From the NCBI GenBank assembly GCA_031260575.1, contig JAIRJR010000246.1, positions 1 to 33,170 on the forward strand: DNA of 33,170 bases, given 5' to 3'. The translations under genes and the position numbers were made by a program. Positions 10,779 through 13,891 of this stretch are shown piece after piece. Numbering within the stretch: the stretch's first letter is position 1; every line of letters begins with the position of its first letter. The notes beneath the pieces are model-generated. The model was given only the letters and a program-made list of their open reading frames with translations. It searched no databases and was not told where the DNA came from. Origin of the DNA: Tannerella sp. GTDB taxonomy: Bacteria; Bacteroidota; Bacteroidia; Bacteroidales; Tannerellaceae.

Positions 10779-12428
10779 ATGACTTTAAAAGAACTTTTCG
10801 ACCGGAGTTGCGTTCAATACGCCGAGCGTATCGCTATATCCTTTGTGAACGGTACACCGATGACCTATTCGGAAATGGGGCAGGAAGTAAATAAAACGAT
10901 TACATTGCTTTGCCGTATGGGTATCTGTAAAGGCGACCGGGTAGCCATTCTGAGCAGCAATATGCCCAATTGGTGCATTACCTATTTTGCCATCACAGGC
11001 ATGGGGGCGATTGTTGTGCCCATCCTTCCGGATTTTCATTCCGAAGAAGTGCAAAGTATCCTTCAACATTCGGGCTGCAAGGCAATTTTTGTTTCTCAAA
11101 AATTGCTGGCAAGCATTGCCGGTTTGCAAAATGAAACACTGAGCCATGTGATTGCCATTGAGGATTTTTCGATGCTTTCGGGCGAATTGGCGGAAAAGCC
11201 TATCGCCTCTGAAGAATTGCCTGTCGACTCGGACACGGCCTCCATCATCTATACTTCGGGCACGACCGGCCGATCGAAAGGCGTGATGCTTAGTCACCAC
11301 AATATAACCGTCAACGCCGTGATGTGCCTGCAAGTACAGGATGTAAACCTGAACGATGTGTTGCTTTCGATCCTGCCCCTGTCGCACACCTACGAAAACA
11401 CCATCGCTTTCATCCTGCCCATTATGCAAGGTGCGTCTATTTATTACTTGGAAAAACCGCCAACGGCAAGTGTGTTGGTGCCGGCATTGGAAAAAGTGCG
11501 TCCGACCACCATGTTGAGCGTTCCATTGGTCATTGAGAAAATATACCGTAATCAGGTACAGGCTAAATTTACGCGGACAAAACTTTTGAGCGCTTTGTAC
11601 GAAAATGTCGTGCCGTTCCGGAAGCTTGTTCATTATCTTGCAGGCATAAAACTGAAGAAAACGTTTGGGGGACGGTTGCGTTTCTTCGGTGTGGGCGGCG
11701 CCAAGATTGACCCTGTTGTGGAACGTTTCCTCCGCGAAGCCCGCTTCCCGTATGCAATCGGTTACGGCCTTACGGAAACTGCTCCGTTGATTGCCGGCGC
11801 CAATCCGTCGAAGACCCGTTTCCAGGCCATTGGACCTGCGTTGGAAGGGGTGGAAATGAAGATTGTTAACCCGGATGCACGTACCGGCTTAGGTGAAGTG
11901 GTTTGCAAAGGCGAAAACGTGATGCAGGGCTATTACCGCGACCCGGAACTGACCCGAAGCGTATTTACCGACGACGGATTTTTCCGTACGGGCGACCTCG
12001 GCTGTTTTGACAAACACCGGTACCTTTCCCTCAAAGGCCGTCTGAAAAGCATGATTGTGGGCGCAAGCGGCGAAAATATCTATCCCGAAGATATCGAGTC
12101 GATAATCAATAACGTACGGGGTGTATTGGAATCATTGGTACTCGAGAAAAAAGGCAAGTTGGTGGCTATGGTACACCTCAATATGGAGGAATTGGAAAAG
12201 AGTTACCTGCAGGCGCGTGACAATGCCATCCAATATATCAGCGACAAAAAAGATGAATGGAACAAGCAAAAGGAAGAGTGCAACAAACACTTAGAGGGTT
12301 ATCTTGAGGAGCTGAAAAATAATGTAAACCATCGCGTTAACCGGTTCTCGCAAATACATTCGATCATAGTTGTTCCCGATCCTTTCGAGAAAACGCCGAC
12401 CCAAAAGATTAAGAGGTATTTGTATTGA
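10779..12428 (+). CDS. Long-chain fatty-acid--CoA ligase (AMP-dependent synthetase)
   Basis: IIYTSGTTGRSKGVMLSHHN, AIGYGLTETAPLI, FFRTGDLG, LKGRLKSMIVGASGENIYPEDIE; ANL-superfamily motifs. Confidence 0.95.
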   Translation: MTLKELFDRSCVQYAERIAISFVNGTPMTYSEMGQEVNKTITLLCRMGICKGDRVAILSSNMPNWCITYFAITGMGAIVVPILPDFHSEEVQSILQHSGCKAIFVSQKLLASIAGLQNETLSHVIAIEDFSMLSGELAEKPIASEELPVDSDTASIIYTSGTTGRSKGVMLSHHNITVNAVMCLQVQDVNLNDVLLSILPLSHTYENTIAFILPIMQGASIYYLEKPPTASVLVPALEKVRPTTMLSVPLVIEKIYRNQVQAKFTRTKLLSALYENVVPFRKLVHYLAGIKLKKTFGGRLRFFGVGGAKIDPVVERFLREARFPYAIGYGLTETAPLIAGANPSKTRFQAIGPALEGVEMKIVNPDARTGLGEVVCKGENVMQGYYRDPELTRSVFTDDGFFRTGDLGCFDKHRYLSLKGRLKSMIVGASGENIYPEDIESIINNVRGVLESLVLEKKGKLVAMVHLNMEELEKSYLQARDNAIQYISDKKDEWNKQKEECNKHLEGYLEELKNNVNHRVNRFSQIHSIIVVPDPFEKTPTQKIKRYLY

Positions 12429-12447
12429 TAGGATTTCTATTTCTTTA

Positions 12448-12522
12448 CCGAATTTGAAATTCGGGCGGGTTTTGCGGCGGCATTACAAATGCCGCCGAAC
12501 ACAGACGGATCATGATCCGTCT
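12448..12522. repeat. Cluster of three tandem perfect palindromes (REP-like hairpins) between convergent genes
   Basis: CCGAATTTGAAATTCGG (12448-12464), CGGCGGCATTACAAATGCCGCCG (12475-12497) and AGACGGATCATGATCCGTCT (12503-12522); every arm base pairs. Confidence 0.85.
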
Positions 12523-12529
12523 CTACATT

Positions 12530-13891
12530 TTATCGAACCTTACACAACAGTTCGTCCCATGTCACTTTCTGCTGTTCGCCTGTGGTCATATCTTTCAGTT
12601 GGACAACTTGTCCGGCGATTTCGTTTGCTCCGACTAAGGCGACAAACGGTATTTTTTTGGAATCGGCATAACTCATTTGTTTTTTCATCTTGACCGAATC
12701 GGGATAAATCTCCGTACTGATACTTTCTTGCCTTAAACGGCTGATAAGCGGAAGCAAATACATCGCTTCCTTTTCTCCGAAATTGACAAACATCAACCGG
12801 GTGGTTTGCTGTGTATTAACAGGATATAGATCAAGTTGATTCAATACATCAAAAATCCGGTCGGCGCCGAACGAGATACCCACACCCGACAGTCCGTCCA
12901 TTCCAAAAACACCTGTCAGATTGTCGTAACGACCGCCTCCAACGATACTGCCCATCTCCACATCAAGCGCTTTTACTTCGAAAATTGAGCCTGTATAATA
13001 ACTTAGCCCGCGTGCAAGCGTCAAATCCAATTCGACAACAGCCGTCAAAGGCAGATGTTCAATCCGGTCAAGGATATACTTCATTTCATCCACCCCTTTT
13101 AATCCGGCTTCCGAGTATTTCATCAAATCCGGCAGGATTGCAATTTTTTCACGATTCGTCCCTTTCAGCGTGATTACCGGTTGCAGATTGGCAATCGCTT
13201 CTTCCGTTAATCCTTTGCTGCGAAGTTCCTCATTGACTTTTTCCGGGCCGATTTTATCCAATTTATCAATCGCGATGGTGATATCAACTGTTTTTCCGGC
13301 TTCTCCGATAATCTCCGAAATGCCGGAAAGTATTTTTCGGTTATTCAGTTTGATGCAAACCCGGATACCGAAACGGCGGAAAACATCGTCTATGATTTGA
13401 ATCATTTCGACTTCATTCAATAAAGAATCCGACCCGACGACGTCGACATCACATTGATAAAATTCACGGTATCGTCCTTTCTGTGGCCTGTCGGCACGCC
13501 AAACGGGTTGTATCTGGTAGCGCCGGAACGGAAACGAAATCTCGTTGTAATGCTGCACCACAAAACGGGCAAAAGGAACCGTCAGGTCGTACCTAAGCCC
13601 TTTTTCACATAGTTTAGCGGATAGTTGAGTGGCGTTTTTCGCGTCTAATTCCTCGTCGGAGACTTTCGAAAGAAAATCGCCCGAATTTAGGATTTTAAAT
13701 AGCAACTTATCGCCCTCTTCGCCATATTTTCCCATCAGTGTGGAAAGATTTTCCATGGCCGGGGTTTCGATTTGTTGAAATCCGAAAAGGTGAAATACAT
13801 CTCGAATGGTTTGAAAGATGTAATTGCGTTTCACCATATTTTCGGGCGAAAAGTCGCGCGTCCCTTGCGGAATCGAAGGTTTTTGCTTCAT
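12530..13891 (-). CDS. hisS: Histidine--tRNA ligase
   Basis: [78 protein letters not shown]; class II HisRS motifs. Confidence 0.97.

Follow-up and report, generated by a model that had tools for sequence, protein, structure and literature searches.

REP biology is known chiefly from Proteobacteria, where the elements carry GTAG or GTGG tags. For REPs of E. coli and others, recognition of a foot together with a hairpin in single-stranded DNA has been shown experimentally (PMC8266576). One survey recorded GTAG repeats from Proteobacteria, Cyanobacteria, Chloroflexi and PVC bacteria, and for Bacteroidetes it reported CGTC repeats only (Di Nocera et al. 2013, PMC3733652). Two RAYT subclasses bear on the locus described here. 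Subclass 2.6 TnpA_REP proteins (RAYT group 5) occur in Bacteroidetes, and the REP-like elements flanking them were called atypical; the main text gives no rule for these elements (Quentin et al. 2018, PMC6006769). Subclass 2.4 RAYTs, according to the same paper, are associated with double-foot REPs, and hairpins of this kind also lie inside RAYT genes.

Results

We analyzed 33,170 bp of a Tannerella sp. contig (the window), part of a metagenome-type assembly of 2.9 Mb in 426 contigs that is 89% complete. A sequence-only reading had placed three perfect inverted repeats between an acyl-CoA ligase gene and hisS. Their coordinates, arms and loops were all borne out, and gene calls confirmed that they sit between converging stops at 12428 (+) and 12530 (-). 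Two unrelated repeat families are represented, A by hairpins 1 and 2, which recur together within a three-hairpin unit, and B by hairpin 3. The features are as follows.

10779..12428, + strand: AMP-binding (acyl-CoA ligase type) gene, PF00501, E 4.9e-77
12441..12500, + strand: truncated family A copy, approximately consensus positions 32-91 of 94, in the order spacer, middle hairpin, spacer, right outer hairpin, AAC foot
12448..12464, no strand: hairpin 1, the middle hairpin of family A, CCGAATTTGAAATTCGG; perfect, 8-bp arms, 1-nt centre
12475..12497, no strand: hairpin 2, the right outer hairpin of family A, CGGCGGCATTACAAATGCCGCCG; perfect, 10-bp arms, ACA loop
12498..12500, + strand: AAC foot of family A, reading GTT 5' of the hairpin on the - strand
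12503..12522, - strand: hairpin 3, the REP hairpin of family B, AGACGGATCATGATCCGTCT; perfect, 10-bp arms, no spacer
12523..12526, - strand: GTAG foot of family B, CTAC on the + strand
12530..13891, - strand: hisS, histidyl-tRNA synthetase, PF13393, E 1.6e-34

The 96-bp stretch that holds the cluster folds far more stably than its shuffles on either strand (z about -6.7), and a search of Rfam gave no match up to E 1.

Hairpins 1 and 2 belong to a dispersed three-hairpin repeat

Copy numbers were taken from sequence searches of 81 assembled genomes, the window's own and 80 relatives. When the own genome was searched with a 91-bp cluster, the query split: positions 10-61 recurred together, and positions 64-91 recurred separately. 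The first part belongs to family A, a 94-bp unit that reads GTTGAGCGGCAATTGCATTGCCGCTC, spacer, CGAATTTGAAATTCG, spacer, CGGCGGCATTACAAATGCCGCCGAAC. Its plan is GTT-[outer]-[middle]-[outer]-AAC. The own genome holds 11 full-length copies and some partial ones, and the family is almost absent from the 80 relatives. In the alignment of full-length copies, the middle hairpin is kept in 11/11, the terminal AAC in 11/11 and the GTT in 10/11. Bases have also changed in a compensatory manner within the local hairpins, with 9 cells altered on both sides against a shuffled mean of 2.8 (0/500), and the right outer hairpin has covarying pairs across the family. We conclude that the family A hairpins are maintained as structure, beyond sequence alone. 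A long cruciform pairing the two outer hairpins was also considered as the conserved fold; it gave no covariation signal and was rejected.

A further three-hairpin GTT/AAC element is present in one relative (G022; L099, L104), reading GTTC-AGCAGGATTTGCAATCCTGCT..CCGGATTTTAAATCCGG..CCAGGGATTGCAAATCCTTGG-TAAC. Its two copies follow the plan of family A in a different sequence.

The window copy keeps only the middle and right hairpins of the plan and is 87% identical to the consensus across positions 32-91 (blastn). The left outer hairpin (GTTGAGCGGCAATTGCATTGCCGCTC) is missing, and the 3' end of the ligase gene occupies its expected place. The ligase stop is native, because the C-terminus KIKRYLY is conserved among homologues, which end alike; the nearest named homologues come from Bacteroidales metagenome-assembled genomes. 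A covariance model of family A matches 12406-12503 with 45.7 bits. Perhaps a decayed left hairpin persists within the ligase 3' end? The model alignment there is weak and some 13 bases are similar, but the presence of KIKRYLY in homologues points to coincidence, and we rejected this idea. An empty site was not found: no ligase homologue adjoins hisS at any of 29 further loci inspected in the genus.

By mechanical ORF calls, family A copies are mostly intergenic, with some lying within ORFs and none between divergent genes. Two copies fall in long ORFs of 967 and 891 aa (L047, G000:C242:6253-6345; L053, G000:C91:2643-2735). These ORFs look paralogous, so the element may be passed on with its host gene and translated as part of it.

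Could the palindromes simply be bidirectional transcription terminators of both convergent genes? Their location between the two stops fits such a role, as do the several intergenic family A copies that, by the same ORF calls, lie between convergent genes, and the lack of any between divergent genes. The sequence-only reading had held that the cluster lacks a U-tract. This stands for hairpins 1 and 2, neither of which is followed by a proper one, but only loosely for hairpin 3, which is followed by CTACATTTTA; a loose terminator scan flagged that hairpin alone, and weakly. Against termination, the same sequences and flanks are common to dispersed loci, including copies within reading frames, and several ligase homologues elsewhere, inspected by eye, have hairpins with T-runs after them that are quite unlike these repeats. 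We judge this explanation distinctly unlikely. The searches with the hairpins and the cluster likewise contradict uniqueness in the genome: these are multicopy repeats.

The ends of family A also recall another kind of site. Core sites of integron attC elements are GTTRRRY and RYYYAAC; the feet GTTGAGC and GCTTAAC resemble them, and the sites are imperfect palindromes. However, all full family A copies have the order GTT..AAC, the reverse of the attC order RYYYAAC..GTTRRRY. Moreover, the right feet are mostly GCCGAAC, and the copies are scattered instead of forming cassette arrays. That family A is an attC-like or other recombination site, and not a RAYT substrate, is therefore extremely improbable.

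Hairpin 3 belongs to a widespread double-foot family

Family B has the form TGTAGAGACG-core-CGTCTCTACA, with GTAG..CTAC feet. The one-sided flank noticed earlier on hairpin 3 was confirmed as CTACA at 12523-12527. It had been said to recall palindromes dispersed in many bacterial genomes, and the CGTCTCTACA flank is indeed that of a TGTAGAGACG..CGTCTCTACA family with a wide distribution: 43 of the 81 genomes have the double-foot pattern, with a maximum of 80 copies per genome, and the reversed-pattern control was zero everywhere. Between genomes the core varies and the feet are constant. The core type seen in the window has 10 copies in the own genome (≤3 mismatches; reversed control, 0), where other double-foot family B copies also occur. 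Members of the family carry a GT[AG]G foot on one side and the complementary foot on the other; the window copy has one foot only, having lost the second, which is expected just left of 12503. About half of the family B copies lie inside ORFs by mechanical calls. Copy numbers of both families are modest compared with those of classical REPs.

Family B is very abundant in two members of the genus, with 80 copies in G027 and 50 in G040. G040 has no Y1_Tnp or RAYT match despite its 50 copies.

Families A and B were seen together only at this locus

The sequence-only reading had taken the cluster for a composite REP/BIME-type element. The REP-type part of that description was largely right, since both constituents are multicopy REP-type repeats; a single composite element was not supported. 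A BIME-type unit comprising all three palindromes and moving whole would suit their tight packing, with the AAC foot 2 bp away from hairpin 3. However, among 21 other family A copies that were inspected, none lies within 200 bp of a family B motif, and the distributions are separate, with A nearly confined to the own genome and B present in 43/81. The order of the three hairpins is not conserved, A adjoining B at this locus only. A composite unit is hence highly improbable, and the neighborhood of A and B looks like a chance meeting.

Hairpins of both types occur at RAYT genes of relatives

A RAYT had been suggested as the mobilizing enzyme. Searches of the own assembly with the NCBIfam RAYT model and with a subclass 2.6 profile revealed no class 2 RAYT, a result that is not decisive because the assembly is 89% complete and in 426 contigs. 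Nor was a cognate subclass 2.4 RAYT detected in this 89%-complete assembly. A single Y1 transposase (PF01797) is present, of the subclass 1.2 type (DHVH, YIKNQ..HH). We rejected it as the mobilizer on account of its subclass and of its flanking inverted repeats, which differ from the elements studied here.

The flanks of this Y1 gene (L042:1321-1954; G000:C204) form an inverted repeat of 30 bp whose ends read GTCCC..GGGAC. Subclass 1.2 is said to lack typical ends.

In relatives, hairpins of the same types do flank or lie within RAYT genes, which bears on the proposed link. Subclasses were assigned from motifs, with NHxH and YIHxNP denoting subclass 2.6; NF047646 was above its cut-off for two members of the genus. 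The outer hairpin beside Bacteroidales RAYTs of subclass 2.6 has GTT on its 5' side or AAC on its 3' side, and a smaller inner hairpin usually accompanies it. By eye, flanking hairpins of the family A plan are present at 8 of 9 such loci, all in other genomes, and the plan is found in other sequence at the RAYT loci of G005, G010, G051, G072, G050, G042 and G078. Within 360 bp of the nine loci, 22 of 24 strong hairpins carry the GTT/AAC foot, against a positional background of 19%. The binomial P of 3e-14 is only indicative, because it takes hairpins as independent, which does not hold for copies that share a locus. The element flanking the G010 RAYT recurs across that genome (85 matches), and one dispersed copy (L280) has four hairpins in the order GTT-outer-inner-inner-outer-AAC. 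The sequence of family A differs from that of every RAYT-flanking element examined.

At 30 other Bacteroidota RAYT loci the foot was not enriched (8/40 hairpins, against a 17% background). We therefore rejected GTT/AAC as a trait of all subclass 2.6 RAYTs. Because these non-Bacteroidales loci (L245-L274) carry other feet, the comparison suggests that foot sequences may be clade specific. The subclass 2.6 RAYTs at these loci have hairpins of 9-10 bp, often with ACT/AGT or GCT feet.

Family B hairpins lie inside subclass 2.4-type RAYT frames in two genomes of the genus: in G002 at 1414-1442 of L184 (ORF 982-1677), and in G027 at 1741 of L185 (ORF 1429-1782). In a third genome, a Y1 (IS200/RAYT-like) domain is in frame in a 753-aa DNA-methyltransferase-like ORF (L172/L165, G034:C110, ORF 1-2259).

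Family A might instead be moved by something other than a RAYT, either as the MITE of another transposase or by replication slippage between hairpins, with a GTT foot that arose convergently. The class 2 RAYT missing from the own assembly would agree with this. However, the foot, the hairpin size and the inner-hairpin plan all match the Bacteroidales subclass 2.6 RAYT loci, and we regard non-RAYT movement as unlikely.

Discussion

We think it probable that two unrelated, non-autonomous REP-type repeats meet at this locus, family A derived from the ends of subclass 2.6 RAYT elements and family B a double-foot REP linked to subclass 2.4. Judged by its plan and feet, family A most likely derives, as a REPIN-like miniature, from the ends used by subclass 2.6 TnpA_REP. 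The four-hairpin copy L280, the three-hairpin units of G022 and the plan at RAYT flanks suggest that the two inner hairpins of the RAYT-end plan may have fused into the single middle palindrome of family A. Family B would be of the double-foot type tied to subclass 2.4 RAYTs, its second foot having decayed in the window copy. Y1 HuH nucleases acting in trans could have mobilized both repeats as single-stranded hairpins, with foot and hairpin as the presumed recognition signals. Since the own assembly yielded no class 2 RAYT, mobilization at this locus, with RAYT proteins of subclasses 2.6 and 2.4 as the putative movers of the window copies, is something we infer. The repeats would have landed downstream of the two convergent genes and then been tolerated because they lie 3' of them. 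The window copies are probably remnants, and the locus is probably now immobile, because A is without one end and B without one foot. The hairpins may also act on the ligase and hisS mRNAs at their 3' ends, through stabilization or termination, and such a role would be secondary. The locus is ordinary repeat DNA, as far as can be told unimportant for the host genes, and it shows the three-hairpin design.

Beyond this locus, there may be a Bacteroidales GTT/AAC REP super-family for subclass 2.6 RAYTs, with two-hairpin ends and, in the own genome and G022, a three-hairpin minimal mobile form with a shared inner hairpin. We regard this generalization as evenly balanced between right and wrong. 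If it is true, the GTT/AAC tag, the two-hairpin end and the three-hairpin miniature would turn "atypical" structures into a testable rule, and such repeats would become annotatable in Bacteroidales genomes. A text search of the literature for the foot sequence returned unrelated papers only.

How do these repeats compare with described systems? As in the subclass 2.6 elements of Quentin et al. (PMC6006769), hairpins flank NHxH/YIHxNP RAYTs, have copies elsewhere in the genome and bear no GT[AG]G tag. The difference lies in the Bacteroidales rule found here, GTT/AAC feet with outer and inner hairpins, which may be implicit in that paper's supplementary table. Family A further differs from those elements, as they are described there, in its one shared inner hairpin and in an own assembly that shows no such RAYT. 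Family B shares with the double-foot REPs of subclass 2.4, as given in the same paper, its GTAG..CTAC at both ends and its hairpins inside RAYT genes, whereas the window copy is one-footed and no subclass 2.4 RAYT is detectable in the assembly. With the GTAG-tagged REP super-family (PMC3733652), the common ground is a short palindrome, a GTAG end and a position downstream of genes, between convergent ones; family A, in contrast, carries neither the GTAG nor the CGTC tag. Finally, like the BIMEs and REPINs of Escherichia and Pseudomonas, family A is a dispersed, non-autonomous unit built on an inverted pair of tagged hairpins, but to this design it adds a conserved middle hairpin and a GTT tag.
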